64,000 nt of DNA from an uncultured Schlesneria sp. Its GTDB lineage: Bacteria; Planctomycetota; Planctomycetia; Planctomycetales; Planctomycetaceae. The DNA is taken from assembly GCA_903904835.1 (NCBI GenBank), contig CAIVEI010000088.1, forward strand, positions 1 to 64,000, written 5' to 3'. Positions 3,211 to 13,025 of this stretch are shown here, one piece after another (within the stretch, counting starts at the first letter, position 1; each line of letters starts with the position of its first letter). The position numbers and the translations under genes are program-made. The notes below the pieces were generated by a model. It searched no databases. It worked only from the letters and a program-made list of their open reading frames with translations, and had not been told where the DNA came from.

Positions 3211-5043
3211 ATGCCCCTTCTCAGTGGCGATTCCACGTACAGTCGATCCTTCTTCTTTGGCCCGCTCGTCCCGATGGCCGTCATGGCATCGATCATCGTC
3301 GGACCCACCACCCTACCCTGCCTGGCTGCGGGACGAGCGTCCGCCATCGTTCAATCGGCATTGCGCACCGAGATTAATGCGGATCTTGATGAACGAGCCC
3401 GTCTGCTCGACGAGGCGATTCAGCTTGATCCAAAATCGCCTGAAGCTCATTGGGCACGGGGTGAAGTTCTTGTCCGAGGTCATTGGGTGTCGCTGGAAAA
3501 TGCGGCGTCGGAAGCGAATGACCGGACCAGTCTGGAAAGATATCGCGAGCAGCGCAGCCACGAAGACGCAACGATTCAGGGGCAAGTGCGAATGGCCGAG
3601 TACTGCCATCACCATCGGCTACCGGCACAGGAACGAGCCCATTGGCTGGCGGTCGTGGCCCTGGCGCCCAATCATCCCGTCGCACGGCAGCGGCTCGGTC
3701 AAACCAACATCGACGGTGCATGGATTGACGCCAGGCAGCTCGACGAATATCGCAAAGCGGATCAAGCGACATCGAAGTACATGCAGAAGCATGGCAAAGA
3801 CTTGTTCAGAATTTCGAAGGGTCTGGAATCGAAAACGCTGTCGTCCGAGCAAGTGGTTAATCAACTGAGCGAATTCCGCAGCCCGCTGGTCATCCCCGGA
3901 TTGGAGTACTTTTTCTCCAGCCGGGGTGAGGAAGGTGGATTGTGTACCGTGGAAACACTGACATCACTTTCGGCGCCAGAAGCGTCGTTGTCATTGGTCA
4001 GGCATGCACTCGATTTTCCGGTTGAATCCGTCCGACTGGCAGCGACGACATCGCTCAAACAACGTGACGAGCACAGTTTCATTCCTGCATTGTTGGGGGC
4101 GCTGCAGACTCCCGTGCAGAAGCAGGATCAATTTTCGTTGGCACCAGGAAACCTGTTGATCTGGAGACGGTCGATATCTGTTGAAAATCAGGAGACAAAA
4201 AAGATTGCAACTCTTGACCGAATCATACCACTGAATGAAGCCTTTCCGACCAGCGAGGGAAGCACCGCCAACTGGACTCGGCGTGCAATGGCGGCTGGTG
4301 ATCTGCAACTGGTGGAACTGAATCGGCAGATCGATGTCAAGAATGATCAATTGATGGATCTTCTGGAAGCCGTCACGAAAGGTAACTCCACGCCGAACGA
4401 CAGATCGACAAAGTCCGCCGCAACAAAGACATCTCCCGAAGACTGGTGGAACTGGTGGAACGATCGGATTGAAAGCTATCCATCAGACCAGAAACAGGTT
4501 CAAATTCGATATGAAATGGCGTACGTCCCGCCGAGCGTAACAGAGACTCAATCGAGGCCACGCCATGAGTGCCTCGCTGCCGGTACGCCGATCTGGACGG
4601 AAATGGGTCCTGTCGCGGTCGATCAGATCCACACGGGGGACCTTGTCCTGACCCAGAACCTGCGAAGCGGAGAATTGAAATTCGCGCCGGTGCTGTCCAC
4701 ATCGAACCGACCTCCGGAGTTACTTCTTCGGCTCCGTTTCGGGCGGGAAATCATTCGCGCCACGGGGGGGCATCCGTTCTGGGTTTCCGGTAAAGGATGG
4801 GTGAAAGCTCGATCGCTCGAACCTGGGATGGCGCTGCATACCGCCCATGGGATCGTAGAACTTGATTCCATTGACGAAGAAAAAGAGGTGGCCAAAGCGT
4901 ACAATCTGATCGTCGACGAATGCCACTCGTACTTCGTCGGCGAGAAGCTGATTCTGAGTCACGACAATTCCACGCGCGAGCCAGTGGCGAACCCCGTACC
5001 TGGTTTGCAGGATGAGATTGAAATGACACGCAGCCGTAATTGA
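3211..5043 (+). CDS. Exported TPR/HEAT-like protein with C-terminal Hint domain
   Basis: 610 residues, with a GGGAGA ribosome site about ten bases before the ATG. The N-terminus has a hydrophobic segment (FGPLVPMAVMASIIVG) ending near CLAAG, suggesting export. TPR-like helices follow (about 50-180; DEAIQLDPKSPEAHWARGE), then helical repeats resembling HEAT (about 210-330). The C-terminus is a Hint (hedgehog/intein) domain: Cys454 starts it (CLAAGTPIWTEMGPVAVDQI), His521 lies in TGGHPFWV (block B), and His584-Asp585-Asn586 in LILSHDN closes it. Hint domains self-cleave or rearrange the peptide bond before their first Cys. Only 24 residues follow the Asn, so no toxin or intein extein lies downstream. 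The role is unknown; the family resembles the HINT of polymorphic-toxin-type proteins. Confidence 0.8.
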   Translation: MPLLSGDSTYSRSFFFGPLVPMAVMASIIVGPTTLPCLAAGRASAIVQSALRTEINADLDERARLLDEAIQLDPKSPEAHWARGEVLVRGHWVSLENAASEANDRTSLERYREQRSHEDATIQGQVRMAEYCHHHRLPAQERAHWLAVVALAPNHPVARQRLGQTNIDGAWIDARQLDEYRKADQATSKYMQKHGKDLFRISKGLESKTLSSEQVVNQLSEFRSPLVIPGLEYFFSSRGEEGGLCTVETLTSLSAPEASLSLVRHALDFPVESVRLAATTSLKQRDEHSFIPALLGALQTPVQKQDQFSLAPGNLLIWRRSISVENQETKKIATLDRIIPLNEAFPTSEGSTANWTRRAMAAGDLQLVELNRQIDVKNDQLMDLLEAVTKGNSTPNDRSTKSAATKTSPEDWWNWWNDRIESYPSDQKQVQIRYEMAYVPPSVTETQSRPRHECLAAGTPIWTEMGPVAVDQIHTGDLVLTQNLRSGELKFAPVLSTSNRPPELLLRLRFGREIIRATGGHPFWVSGKGWVKARSLEPGMALHTAHGIVELDSIDEEKEVAKAYNLIVDECHSYFVGEKLILSHDNSTREPVANPVPGLQDEIEMTRSRN

Positions 5044-5079: not shown

Positions 5080-5565
5080 ATGTTTGAAAGTGAAATTGCC
5101 GTCAACGAAAACTTGTTAGTCCAGTTTGGGAAGATTCTGGCTGACATCCCCGAAGAAACACTGTTCACGCCGTCGGCTGGTCACGGACATTCACCCGTCT
5201 GGCTGCTCGGTCATCTGGCGATCGTTGGAGAAGCGGGCCAGCGGATGGCAGGGGGCAAGATCACTCACACCGAATGGTTGCGATTGTTTGGCCCAGGCTC
5301 TTTGGACAATATTTCGTTCAACGCCGATTTGACAAAATCAATGTTGGTTACGGCGGTCACGGAAGCCTACGCTCAATTGAGAAGCCTGGCCCTGGTGACC
5401 GATGAAGCGAATGTCTCTCGCCCGCACGGAGTTACCGTCCTGACGGGAACCCCGATTGTCACGGTGAAACATTGCATCACCCACCTGCTGACAAGTCATT
5501 TCGCGTTTCACCTCGCGCAATTATCCAGTTGTCGACGAGCGGCTGGATTTCCTGCGTTGTTCTGA
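5080..5565 (+). CDS. DinB-like four-helix metal-binding protein
   Basis: 161 residues, usual for the DinB/YfiT superfamily. Three histidines fit the metal triad: His45 in WLLGHLA, and His140 and His144 in HLLTSHFAFHLAQL. Members bind a divalent metal and many act as thiol S-transferases or stress proteins; the substrate cannot be read from sequence. It starts 36 bases after the Hint-domain gene, so the two may be co-transcribed. A hairpin terminator follows at 5644-5670. Confidence 0.75.
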   Translation: MFESEIAVNENLLVQFGKILADIPEETLFTPSAGHGHSPVWLLGHLAIVGEAGQRMAGGKITHTEWLRLFGPGSLDNISFNADLTKSMLVTAVTEAYAQLRSLALVTDEANVSRPHGVTVLTGTPIVTVKHCITHLLTSHFAFHLAQLSSCRRAAGFPALF

Positions 5566-5703: not shown

Positions 5704-7335
5704 CTATGACTGCAAGTCATTGCTGGTTAAGACACGATAGAACATGGTCTGATTAAGTGCGGTGACCGCCGAGTTGAGCTTGTTCTCCCTGTTGCCGTTC
5801 TGATTCAACTGCACCAGAACTCCGTTGTGCCAGACGACGGGAAACGGTGCATGGGACATCACATTGTCGTCAAAGAAGTCAGCGATGGCTTTACCATGGT
5901 TATTGAGACCGCCACCGATGTAAAGAGTCGTCTGGTCAACATTGTTTTGGAAATGATTGGTGTAGCCCGCGTATCGCGGCGCTGGCGGATTGTTCAACCC
6001 ATGCCCCTGGACGGCAAGTTCTTCCAGCGAAGCATTGCCTTGCACGGTCGCCTCCATGCTCAAGTAGCTTTGGTTTGTGAATGGACCAGCTGTATGATTG
6101 ATCTGCATCGCGGCCCAGACTGCGTCAAACTCGCGTTGAGCATCTTCGCGATCAACTTCCAGTTGAGTAGCGCTGAGTTTGCTGAGCCCCGTGTTCTCAA
6201 AGACTGCCTCGGCATTCCCTTCCCAGCGTTGCAGCAGAGTCAAGCTGCCAAAGTTGCCGGAAAGCATGATCTGATAGTTCGCCTTCCATTCCACCGACAG
6301 GTCGATCGAATTCCCATTGCTGTCCACAGGATGGAACAGACCATTCGCATCCGCGACCCAGGTGTGTGCCAACGGTATGTTGTCGACACTGCTTAACGTC
6401 GTCGGTACCAGCCCCCATGCCGTAACAATCTGACCATTCGCAGGGGCATGATTGACCTGGATCTCGGTCCCCTCCACATATTTCGGGGCTGGCGAGCTGT
6501 AGTGTGCTTTCGACACCGCCGTCTGCGAGAACATCGCGCTGGTGTAAACTCGATAGTACATGGTGTCATCGAGTTCGGTCACGGCAGTCTCAAGGCTATT
6601 CTCGATATTGCCGTTTTGATTAAGTTGGACAAGACCTCCGTTATGCCAGACCACCGAGAAGGGAGCGTGCGACATGATGTCGTCATCGAAGAAATCAGTC
6701 AGCGCATTATTGTTAGTGTTATGTCCACCACCAATATAGAGAGTCGTGCCATCGACGTTATTCTGGAAATCGTTAGTATAGCCGGCGTAACGTGAGGCTG
6801 GCGGGTCATTTAAGCCGTGTCCCTGAACTGCCAACTCAAGCAAAATCGAATTATTCTGCAACGCTGCCTCCATAGACAGGTATGTCTGTTCTGTCAATGG
6901 AGTATTTACATCGATATTAAGCGTGCTCTTATTTGTGAGCATTGCTGCCCAGACGGCGTCGAACTCGCGTTGTGCATCTTCGCGATAAATCTGCTGAGTT
7001 AGCGGAGTAAGCGTATTGATCGTCGTATTTTCGAAAACTGCCTCGGCATTACCCTCCCAACGCTGTAGGGGCGAAAGTGCAGCGAGAGTTTGTGGACTTT
7101 GCATCGCTTGATAATCGGCCTGCCACTCAGACGCAAGATTCGATGTGTGATACTTGCCCGTGTTATCGGCGGTCCATGTATGTGCCGTGAAGTCGATCGT
7201 CGGGACCACGGCGGCGTAGGGATTTACGACAGCCGGCACACGTCGATGCTCGAGCGTCTCAATAGTCATTGAGAACGATTTGCGAGCCCTGAACGACTTG
7301 TCGAAACAATGCCGAAAGAAATGGCTGAACAACAT
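5704..7335 (-). CDS. Exported protein with two tandem copies of a ~215-residue domain
   Basis: 543 residues from the ATG at 7335, which has a strong AAGGAGAGG ribosome site; the frame extends 13 codons further without one. The N-terminus is basic and carries ETLEHRRVPAV (about residues 26-36), a variant of the planctomycete LEPR-like motif found at the start of giant surface proteins. The rest is an internal duplication: about 51-265 and 323-538 both contain AHTW.AD, LQRWEGNAEAVFENT, REDAQREFDAVWAAM, LAVQGHGL, RYAGYTN.FQNNVD.TTLYIGGG and MSHAPF.VVWHNG. The duplicated domain is not one I recognise. Conserved His, Trp and Asp residues could mark an enzyme or binding site. Location is probably the cell surface. 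Confidence 0.75.
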   Translation of the reverse strand: MLFSHFFRHCFDKSFRARKSFSMTIETLEHRRVPAVVNPYAAVVPTIDFTAHTWTADNTGKYHTSNLASEWQADYQAMQSPQTLAALSPLQRWEGNAEAVFENTTINTLTPLTQQIYREDAQREFDAVWAAMLTNKSTLNIDVNTPLTEQTYLSMEAALQNNSILLELAVQGHGLNDPPASRYAGYTNDFQNNVDGTTLYIGGGHNTNNNALTDFFDDDIMSHAPFSVVWHNGGLVQLNQNGNIENSLETAVTELDDTMYYRVYTSAMFSQTAVSKAHYSSPAPKYVEGTEIQVNHAPANGQIVTAWGLVPTTLSSVDNIPLAHTWVADANGLFHPVDSNGNSIDLSVEWKANYQIMLSGNFGSLTLLQRWEGNAEAVFENTGLSKLSATQLEVDREDAQREFDAVWAAMQINHTAGPFTNQSYLSMEATVQGNASLEELAVQGHGLNNPPAPRYAGYTNHFQNNVDQTTLYIGGGLNNHGKAIADFFDDNVMSHAPFPVVWHNGVLVQLNQNGNRENKLNSAVTALNQTMFYRVLTSNDLQS

Positions 7336-7637
7336 GAATCCTCTCCTTGCGTGATGTGAAAGTAGACCAGTCAAAACAAAAAATGACTCATGCGTGGAAA
7401 TAGGCGCAAGAGATTTTTCGAGTTCGAATGGCCCGCAGAGAATTCGTGCAAGTATGACGGCTATTGCGTTCGTCAGTTACACATTGGCCCGAAGAGGTGC
7501 GGCGGGAAGTATAGAATGCCGCAATTGAAATCGTCAAGAAGCTGACGAAAAGATTACGTGGATCTACATCAAGAGCGTCGAAACGACCGACTTTTCTTAT
7601 AACATAGCGGGAACGTCCCTGCACGCTCTTCAGTGAA
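7336..7637. other. Intergenic region, nothing recognised
   Basis: About 300 bases between two minus-strand genes. The first bases upstream of 7335 hold the ribosome site of the duplicated surface protein. No hairpin with a T-run was seen. Confidence 0.4.
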
Positions 7638-10082: not shown

Positions 10083-13025
10083 ATGCTGAATATTTTTCGA
10101 GCCTGGCTGAATTCGTTTCGAGTTTTGGCACCAGGTCGTCGAGTTCAATCTCGGCGTCGATCTGCATTCTCGTTCGTGGCAGATATTCAGGTTTTGGAAC
10201 CGCGCGCCCTGTTGTCAGCGTCGTTCCCGCAGTTCGTCGATCCACATCCTTCGACAGGCGACGGATTCGGGGCTCTCGTTGATCCCTTGAAGAATGGAAA
10301 TGTCATCGTCGTCGCTCCGGGTGATAACGCGGGTGGAACAAATGCAGGCGCCCTTTACCTGTTTAACGGATCAACCGGTGCCTTGATCAGCACCCTGCAT
10401 GGCAGCCATGCTGGTGATTTCAATTATTGCAATATCTACGATGTTGGAAACAACAACTTTATTCTGGTCGATCAAGCATGGAACAACGGCTTTGGTGCCG
10501 TAACATGGGGTAGCGGGACCACGGGAATCAACGGCACAATCAGTGCTTCAAACAGCTTGATTGGAAGCAGCACCAGCGATTACATCGGCGCAGGTGGAAT
10601 CACAGTCCTTCCCAATGGGAATTACCTGATCAACTCGTGCTACTGGGCGAACGGGACGGCAACGGATGCGGGGGCCGTGACGTGGGGAAGCGGGGCCACA
10701 GGCGTCAGCGGTACGATCAGTGCCTCGAACAGCCTGATTGGGACGAGCACCAGCGATTTCGTCGGAATCGGCGGAATCACCGTACTTCCCAATGGGAATT
10801 ACCTTGTCGACTCGTACAACTGGGCTAACGGAACGGCAACCAAAGCGGGTGCCGTGACCTTTGGAAATAGCGCGACCGGCGTGCATGGGGCTGTCAGCGC
10901 ATCGAACAGTCTCGTGGGTAGCTCAATCAACGACAGTGTCGGTGAATCCGGATACATTTTTGGCGGCATTCAACCGGGCATTTCACTCCCGACACCAGTC
11001 GCGGGCTTGCCGACCCCTAATATCGTGATCGGCCCGTGGTTCTACCCCTCAATCACGGTGCTGAAAAATGGCAATTACACCGTCAATAGCGAGAATTGGA
11101 ATCAACAGGCGGGTGCTGTGACATTCGGAAATAGCGCGACAGGAGTCGCGGGAGTTGTCAGCGCATCCAACAGTTTGATTGGTGATGCTAAGGGCGACAG
11201 GATTGGCGGATCAGGGGTCACGCCATTGACAAACGGAAACTACGTTGTCGTCAGTCCGGCATGGGCCAATGGAACTGCGGTCGGCGCAGGAGCGGTGACA
11301 TGGGGAAGCGGAACGACAGGGATTCATGGCTTTGTCAGCGTGACCAACAGCCTGGTGGGCTCGACCAAGGGCGATTCTGTCGGCCACGACGGAATCGTGG
11401 AATTGAAAAACGGTAACTATGTGATTGACAGCTCTGATTGGAACAACGGCGCGGCACTTGGTGCAGGAGCCGTCACGTTCAGCAACGGAAGGCGGGGCAT
11501 CACAGGCGTCGTCAGTTCCGCGAACAGTCTTGTCGGCAGTACAACGAACGATCATGTCGGCGGTCTGATACCATACCCATGGATCCTTACCCCGGCAGTC
11601 ACTTCAAACGCTCAAACCACATCATCCACCACGAACGGAGTGACATACGTCAATGGTTCCGGCATCGCCCTACTGGGTGACGGAAACTATCTTGTGGTCA
11701 GTCAGAGCTGGAATAATGGTGCTGCCACCGAGGCAGGCGCTGTGACCTGGGGGAGCGGTGTGATCGGCGCATCCGACGTCGTCAGTGCGGCGAATAGCCT
11801 GGTCGGCACGACGAAAGGTGATGAAGTTGGCAGCGGCGGAGTCGTCGGGGTTGGCAATGGAAATTTTGTTGTCATCAGTCCGAACTGGTCGAACGGATCA
11901 ATGGTCGATGCGGGAGCGGTGACGTTCGTCCGCGGCGAGCGTGGGTTCAAGGGGATCGTCAGTTCGAGCAACAGCCTTGTGGGAAGCTCGAACGGCGATT
12001 TCGTAGGCACCTCTGGAGTGGTCGTGCTGAGCAACGGCAATTACCTGGTTCGTAGTCCGTCGTGGGGCGCCGGGGCCTTCGAGACAGGTACCGTCTATCC
12101 ATGGACATCACTGGGGCTCGGTGCCGTGACGTGGGGCAGTGGAGCGACAGGGGTTCTCGGCGTATTGAGTGCCAGTAACAGTCTTGTCGGAAGTTCAAAG
12201 GGTGACTGGGTCGGAATTAGCTTTCCCACGATTCTTTCGAACGGAAATTACGTCGTCGAAACGAGTAGCTGGCACACTTACACAGGCGCGTCAACGTGGG
12301 GTGATGGAAGTAAAGGGGTTAGCGGTGTGATCAGCGCCTCAAACAGCCTCGTTGGAAGCTTGCCTGGTGACTCAATCGGCGGATTTTTTGGTTGTATTAG
12401 CTTGAGCAACGGAAACTATGTGTTACTAAGCCCTAATTGGAATCAGGGCGAAGGAGCCGCGACATGGGTTAATGGCAAAACAGGAATCGTTGGGACGATC
12501 AATGCAACCAATAGCCTTGTCGGCAGTTCGAAGGGTGATCAAGTCGGCAGTTGGTACACTCTACTAGCAAACGGAAATTATGTCATTAATAGCCCTTATT
12601 GGAATCGTAATGCAGGCGCAGTGACGTGGAACAGTAGTTCGCATGGTGTCGTGGGTGTGATTAGTGCCGCGAATAGTCTTATTGGAGGCACCGCCGGAGA
12701 TTTTGTCGGCGAATATCCAATTTACGCTCTACCGAACGGGAACTACGTCGTTGATAACCCGGTTTGGTCGAACAATCTGGGTGCCGCGACGTTTGGAAAT
12801 GGTACGAGTGGAGTCCATGGAATCGTCAGTTCGACAAATAGCCTCGTCGGCTCCACTGCCGGCGATTCTGTGGGAAGTAATGGAATCGACGTATTCAGTA
12901 ACAGCAATTACCTGGTCATGAGCCACAATTGGAGCCAGGTGAGCGGAAATCCAAACGGCAGTAGTGTGGTCACTCCCAACGTAGGTGCTGCCACGTTTGG
13001 CAATGGGTCGACGGGCGTCAGTTGA
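10083..13025 (+). CDS. N-terminal part of an interrupted LEPR-motif repeat surface protein
   Basis: 980 codons to the first stop. The N-terminus has a basic leader and VLEPRALLSA (about residues 37-46), the planctomycete surface-protein motif. Then come about fifteen degenerate repeats of 55-75 residues, each with GAVTWGSG.TG, a GTISASNSL.GSS..D..G core and LPNGNYLV..., likely a beta-propeller or beta-solenoid stack. The stop at 13023-13025 (TGA) falls exactly where the repeat expects Gly (GGA). Beyond it the repeat continues in frame (LITNANSFIGTG) to 13091, where a mobile element begins. The missing C-terminus is at 22971-23450. The gene is therefore broken twice: a nonsense codon and an insertion. 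Confidence 0.85.
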   Translation: MLNIFRAWLNSFRVLAPGRRVQSRRRSAFSFVADIQVLEPRALLSASFPQFVDPHPSTGDGFGALVDPLKNGNVIVVAPGDNAGGTNAGALYLFNGSTGALISTLHGSHAGDFNYCNIYDVGNNNFILVDQAWNNGFGAVTWGSGTTGINGTISASNSLIGSSTSDYIGAGGITVLPNGNYLINSCYWANGTATDAGAVTWGSGATGVSGTISASNSLIGTSTSDFVGIGGITVLPNGNYLVDSYNWANGTATKAGAVTFGNSATGVHGAVSASNSLVGSSINDSVGESGYIFGGIQPGISLPTPVAGLPTPNIVIGPWFYPSITVLKNGNYTVNSENWNQQAGAVTFGNSATGVAGVVSASNSLIGDAKGDRIGGSGVTPLTNGNYVVVSPAWANGTAVGAGAVTWGSGTTGIHGFVSVTNSLVGSTKGDSVGHDGIVELKNGNYVIDSSDWNNGAALGAGAVTFSNGRRGITGVVSSANSLVGSTTNDHVGGLIPYPWILTPAVTSNAQTTSSTTNGVTYVNGSGIALLGDGNYLVVSQSWNNGAATEAGAVTWGSGVIGASDVVSAANSLVGTTKGDEVGSGGVVGVGNGNFVVISPNWSNGSMVDAGAVTFVRGERGFKGIVSSSNSLVGSSNGDFVGTSGVVVLSNGNYLVRSPSWGAGAFETGTVYPWTSLGLGAVTWGSGATGVLGVLSASNSLVGSSKGDWVGISFPTILSNGNYVVETSSWHTYTGASTWGDGSKGVSGVISASNSLVGSLPGDSIGGFFGCISLSNGNYVLLSPNWNQGEGAATWVNGKTGIVGTINATNSLVGSSKGDQVGSWYTLLANGNYVINSPYWNRNAGAVTWNSSSHGVVGVISAANSLIGGTAGDFVGEYPIYALPNGNYVVDNPVWSNNLGAATFGNGTSGVHGIVSSTNSLVGSTAGDSVGSNGIDVFSNSNYLVMSHNWSQVSGNPNGSSVVTPNVGAATFGNGSTGVS

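Follow-up and report, generated by a model that had tools for sequence, protein, structure and literature searches.

The 64,000-nucleotide stretch of DNA analyzed here (the window), from contig CAIVEI010000088.1 of an uncultured Schlesneria sp., contains an open reading frame (ORF) at 3211-5043 in which residues 452-585 form a Hint domain, well above chance. The encoded protein represents a real, conserved and distinct class of Hint proteins in planctomycetes, for which we infer a function from sequence and structure prediction. Our favored interpretation, held with a little more confidence than doubt, is that this is an autoprocessing Hint domain that would work at its N-terminal side only and would retain a conserved C-terminal tail, which perhaps docks on the TPR/HEAT-like front part of the protein. 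An earlier, sequence-only reading had proposed a C-terminal Hint domain that may release the front part or attach it to another molecule, as in hedgehog. The replacement of the final Asn by Asp, the conserved tail, the constraint on residue 453 and the widespread planctomycete family go beyond that reading.

A C-Terminal Hint Fold with Aspartate in Place of the Terminal Asparagine

The Pfam profile PT-HINT (PF07591) matches residues 463-577 with 60.9 bits, well above its cut-off of 27.7 (E 2.1e-16); Hint_2 gives a partial match to residues 454-483, and a phmmer search against the PDB matched 2lwy at E 6e-18. To these matches the AlphaFold2 model of the full-length protein, built on 53 aligned rows (mean predicted local distance difference test [pLDDT] 86.5, predicted template modeling score [pTM] 0.81), adds the Hint fold itself, with a domain pLDDT of about 95. 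Its closest solved structure is 2lwy, a bacterial intein-like (BIL) domain of C. thermocellum (Z 21.7, root mean square deviation 1.5 Å over 135 residues, 35% identity). Further BIL and intein domains come next; for hedgehog 1at0, Z is 17.7. The Hint domain modeled alone gives a matching structural result. Thus, the Hint fold of the sequence-only reading stands on profile, homolog search and model alike.

Translation of the ORF places C454, H521 and H584-D585-N586 where they had been reported, with 24 residues after N586. In a structural alignment, residues 454 to 585 correspond to residues 1 to 440 of the Mtu RecA intein; therefore, the terminal Asn position is occupied by D585 and the +1 position by N586. 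The HDN triplet had thus been located correctly as a Hint motif, but it is not the His-Asn of inteins, since Asp replaces the terminal Asn. The protein has the hallmarks of the Hint superfamily, namely the fold, a Cys or Ser at position 1 and the block-B His, and the residues expected for the cleavage before Cys454 that had been suggested (Cys1 and a block-B Thr/Ser-x-x-His) are present.

For the front part, earlier labeled TPR/HEAT, the Pfam matches to TPR_11 (22.4 bits, cut-off 26.8) and HEAT_2 (18.3 bits, cut-off 27.7) are both sub-threshold, but residues 20-297 are helical nearly throughout in the model. An NCBIfam search of the 610-residue protein gave no meaningful match.

Conservation of the Putative Catalytic Positions, the Junction and the Tail

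Relatives were collected by a pattern scan of genome contigs from 84,980 species, which gave 78 loci, and by hidden Markov model (HMM) searches. The counts of Cys1 and H521 in the scan-found rows are biased because the scan patterns demanded either C-[LF]-x-A-G-T-P or the block-B stretch; the 43 HMM-found rows are free of this bias. From the HMM lists 60 stretches were taken, and 56 rows scored at least 40 bits with the Hint model. The 53-row alignment covers 52 of 55 loci, these being the window and the planctomycete loci L070-L123, with L118 (cut off) and L120 and L122 (missed by the motif search) excluded. The nearest relatives of the window protein, L070-L072, are also from uncultured Schlesneria sp. 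and match it at 83-84% over the whole protein. Among 198 genomes of the class, 88 matched in the HMM search at 1e-15, the weaker ones often being of toxin type. By manual count of the search table, the best E-value was 1.4e-33 or lower in 55 of these 198 genomes, and matches at 2.3e-30 and above mostly stop short of the tail. Across 294 genomes of the phylum, the search at 1e-33 matched 7. Both matches from outside the class (G321 and G370) are toxin type with HN, and a spread of the family beyond the class was rejected on that ground.

Cys454, H521, N565 and D585 are each present in 53/53 rows, and position 518 is Thr or Ser in all of them; position 584 is His in 51 and Gln in 2. The residue directly before Cys1, position 453 (-1), is limited to Ser (26 rows), Glu (18) and Asp (9), and the +1 position includes Asn (29), Val (17), Leu (2) and Ser (2). 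A wider set of 95 distinct relatives comprises 52 scan-found rows, 22 HMM-found PGL rows (with a PG-kind tail or close to such rows in the tree) and 21 PFD rows (FD tail, family f2), the last from a group in which several genomes carry many copies. Asp occupies the Asn position in 93 of these 95 (52/52 scan-found, 20/22 PGL and 21/21 PFD), Cys1 is kept in 92 (52/52, 20/22 and 20/21), and the -1 residue is Ser, Glu or Asp in 86 (52/52, 18/22 and 16/21). In the comparison set of 37 toxin-type Hints, Asn was found in all 20 that aligned at this position; the other 17 are gapped at it, and those whose ends are listed show HN. Their -1 residue is Ser, Glu or Asp in 1/35.

In a tree of only 128 columns that exclude Cys1 and block G, the PGL, PFD and toxin groups are each separate, with support of 96/89, 100/98 and 98/82, when Streptomyces and acidobacterial rows are omitted. 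With the Streptomyces and acidobacterial Hint included, the PGL set needs 2 changes and the groups are less clean. A single grouping of all His-Asp rows was not rejected in the wider tree (approximately unbiased test, p 0.162), yet this is no demonstration of one origin.

The 24 residues after the HDN triplet, although correctly counted in the sequence-only reading, are no mere remainder, since residues 586-602 are conserved family-wide and only the last 8 are free. HD-x11-PG occurs at fixed spacing in 49/51 scan-found rows, L112 and L119 lacking PG; judged by eye, L101 and L110 conform to it. Of the HMM-found PGL rows, 17/22 have PG (absent from L239 and L241-L244), and in the PFD group FD replaces it in 21/21, as PFD in 19. 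The distance from Cys1 to the end is 147-175 residues in 26 rows, found with a pattern restricted to short tails. The PG tail was seen only alongside the TPR/HEAT front part; toxin-type rows gave no N-terminal match.

Selection was measured as the ratio of nonsynonymous to synonymous substitution rates (dN/dS) over the six pairs of four close orthologs. Values were 0.033-0.071 for the Hint domain vs. 0.101-0.135 for the TPR/HEAT part. The tail gave 0-0.057 and the last eight residues 0.12-2.2, both rough values from short stretches with high dS.

Comparison with Known Hint Systems

The closest structural relative, the type A BIL domain (2lwy), shares with the window protein the position of Cys1, the block-B His and the lack of a +1 nucleophile. 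It ends in His-Asn, whereas the window family ends in His-Asp, carries a conserved tail that is fixed and allows few residues at -1; the C-terminal His-Asn that defines type A is thus replaced in the window and in nearly all relatives. Type B BILs, which lack an intein-like block G, can be set beside the family by definition only; the window protein keeps His584, not Asn. Inteins end in Asn, rarely in Gln or Asp, and this residue is followed by Cys, Ser or Thr at +1; the window protein has Asn at +1.

PT-HINT of polymorphic toxins is the best Pfam match and resembles the window protein in the signal-like start; Sec-exported carriers are among its usual ones (PMC3482391). PT-HINT directly precedes a C-terminal toxin domain. 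The window Hint is followed by no toxin, as the sequence-only reading had it, there being 25 residues after D585; it also has Asp for Asn and falls in a separate tree group. The window genome's two toxin-type PT-HINT proteins (L001 44-2056 and L003 1087-3300) have HN and a further C-terminal domain.

The hedgehog Hog domain (1at0) is alike in fold, in its C-terminal place and in having no ordinary extein to ligate, and to that extent the likeness drawn earlier survives. Identity is 12%, however, and the front part has no hedgehog match. Nor could a sterol-recognition region of the hedgehog kind fit, because only those 25 residues follow D585. C-terminal Hint-like proteins of Myxococcus, Photorhabdus and others, some with a signal peptide and none with a toxin named in the accessible part of PMC2362128, can be likened to the window protein by description, not sequence. 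A literature search that did not cover most subscription papers yielded, among the matches listed, none whose title or opening lines of abstract dealt with this family; one match concerned Neisseria MafA.

Proposed N-Terminal Processing and Alternative Interpretations

Export of the ORF 3211-5043 product is likely, to judge from its signal-like hydrophobic start, a feature common to 40/45 full-length family members (Kyte-Doolittle peak of at least 1.8 within the first 70 residues). In the interpretation that we favor, the exported precursor would then fold, and Cys454, aided by T518 and H521, would attack the carbonyl of residue 453 (Glu in the window protein; Ser, Glu or Asp in the family) to form a thioester. 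In inteins, the N-terminal reaction relies on Cys1 together with block B. The thioester could be resolved by water, the simplest option, or by an amine or hydroxyl acceptor, and the TPR/HEAT part would be freed with a Ser, Glu or Asp C terminus. The succinimide reaction at the far side is expected to be off because Asp replaces the Asn of inteins, type A BILs and toxin Hints; the conserved tail would therefore remain on the Hint domain, where it may pack on the TPR/HEAT part and keep both pieces together. For type A BILs, ending in His-Asn, a C-side cut via Asn cyclization has been proposed (PMC4031507). An Asp preceding Cys1 makes the N-terminal cleavage of an intein over four times faster, and a Pro there makes it 1000-fold slower (PMC8891592); the Asp effect is a partial fit to the Ser/Glu/Asp rule of the family.

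Three points weigh against this interpretation. Inteins ending in a C-terminal Asp reportedly splice (work attributed to Amitai, 2004), so the Asp is no proof of a dead C side. The Hint domain can also persist without the full residue set, because Cys1, the block-B His or the Asp is missing from five members: L245 and L246 lack Cys1, L265 (from genome G037) has Ser1 and no block-B His, and L237 and L238 have Gly at 585. Some family members may be inactive. Finally, tail docking has weak evidence in the models: residues 581-600 have pLDDT 86-88 in the full-length model (mean 88 at 591-600), whereas residues 590-599 have only 72 when the Hint domain is modeled alone, and this drop without the front part hints at contact between the two. 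Separately, L235 has Phe at position 584.

The alternative that fares best, at perhaps one chance in several, is hedgehog-like conjugation, in which the thioester would normally be transferred to one particular acceptor, be it a lipid, an amine or a protein; D585 would act as the base, and the tail would serve in docking or recognition. The C-terminal place of a Hint domain without toxin, the nearness of the model to 1at0 and the presence of a conserved Asp and tail that have no known role in plain hydrolysis point this way; the absence of a sterol-recognition region and of a general partner gene (see below) argues against it. Somewhat less probable is a structural or regulatory role, in which the Hint fold would have become a binding or folding module that hardly cleaves. 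The five members with lost residues all keep the TPR/HEAT part, and 4/5 keep the PG tail, as such a role would allow; Cys1 in 92/95 relatives and the narrow -1 choice fit catalysis better. We consider equally doubtful a more specific proposal, that within this one planctomycete class the domain performs hedgehog-like acyl transfer on a secreted TPR/HEAT protein, the Asp activating an outside nucleophile rather than cutting the chain, at a Ser/Glu/Asp junction, and the PG tail docking the Hint domain on its substrate.

Protein splicing, with the Hint domain excised and the tail joined to the TPR/HEAT part via C-side Asp chemistry, appears improbable. Conservation of the tail is extein-like; type A BILs can join fragments even though they lack a nucleophile at +1, and inteins ending in Asp are reported (PMC4031507). 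Against this, the +1 residue is Asn or Val, no nucleophile, in 46/53 rows, and no Hint-less relative with the tail was seen. This last point comes from an HMM for the TPR/HEAT-WW region, which matched 142/198 class genomes: the six Hint-less hits examined are HEAT-like proteins of 438-505 residues, all with endings unlike the tail. The front part thus has Hint-less kin. Lastly, a decaying polymorphic-toxin gene, a PT-HINT protein minus its toxin domain, would suit the Pfam label of pretoxin HINT and the two toxin-type Hints in the same genome, but it is very improbable given strong purifying selection on the Hint domain (dN/dS far from 1), a position outside the planctomycete toxin Hints in the tree (98/82) and a tail fixed in dozens of loci, and a toxin remnant was rejected on the first two grounds.

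Gene Layout and Genomic Neighborhood

Table 1. Features of the Hint gene and its downstream neighbor (window coordinates)
Feature	Position	Strand	Basis or remark
Whole gene, 610 aa	3211..5043	+	Signal-like start, TPR/HEAT-like helices, WWxWW motif, linker, Hint, conserved tail
Residues 1-40, hydrophobic signal-like start	3211..3330	+	Kyte-Doolittle peak 2.53 from residue 19
Residues 20-297, TPR/HEAT-like helical repeats	3268..4101	+	Sub-threshold Pfam matches and model
Strands 303-340, then long helix 352-390	extending to base 4380	+	AlphaFold2 model
Residues 409-420, short helix with WWxWW	4435..4470	+	W412, W413 and W416 at least 90% in 53 rows
Linker, residues 421-451	4471..4563	+	Family-variable length; pLDDT <50 at 438-451
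Glu453, directly before catalytic Cys	4567..4569	+	S/E/D in relatives
Hint domain, about residues 452-585 (Cys454 to Asp585)	4570..4965	+	Pfam, phmmer, model, structural alignment
Cys454 (Cys1), expected nucleophile	4570..4572	+	Structural alignment and conservation
Block B, T518-x-x-H521	4762..4773	+	Conservation in 53 rows
Block G, H584-D585; D585 in place of intein terminal Asn	4960..4965	+	Structural alignment and conservation
Conserved tail, residues 586-602, including P597-G598 (4999-5004)	4966..5016	+	Family alignment
Final 8 residues, unconserved, low model confidence	5017..5040	+	dN/dS and model
DinB_2-superfamily gene, neighbor, not considered part of the feature	5080..5565	+	Downstream only in window and three close orthologs

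Over the 55 loci, whose contigs are often short, a TPR coiled-coil gene neighbors the Hint gene in 11, a vWA-HEAT gene in 8 and the DinB_2 gene in 4. On these counts a conserved operon was rejected, and since each neighbor is common to a subset of loci only, there is no general partner gene. The TPR coiled-coil neighbor, which looks secreted, and the vWA-HEAT gene flank mainly the paralog type that the window's genome carries on contig C32. There (L055 5511-10066), the paralog lies between the two, all three close together and on one strand. Neither adjoins the window copy, which has the DinB_2 gene only. A W-x-x-WW motif is common to the vWA-HEAT neighbor and the TPR/HEAT part by eye only; hhalign gave a probability of 16.8 over 100 columns, and a common origin is not claimed.

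At L063, the TPR/HEAT and Hint parts lie in two overlapping frames (400-1782 and 1772-2275), a frameshift or split gene, and at L084, L228, L057 and L059 the gene occurs in two or more tandem copies. Elsewhere in the window, a long ORF at 10083-13025 begins close to a LEPRALLSA sequence and contains repeats of the pattern G-N-[YF]-x-V, and an ORF on the minus strand at 5704-7374 has two similar halves.

Discussion

Most bacterial Hint domains are interpreted as inteins, BILs or pretoxin processors. In this case, a lineage keeps one on a non-toxin protein, with Asp at the one position that decides between one-side and two-side cutting, few residues allowed at the predicted cut and a tail that is fixed; annotation as "pretoxin HINT" would be misleading across dozens of genomes. 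If the acyl-transfer proposal were true, the family would represent a fixed, non-toxin, non-selfish bacterial use of the Hint fold.
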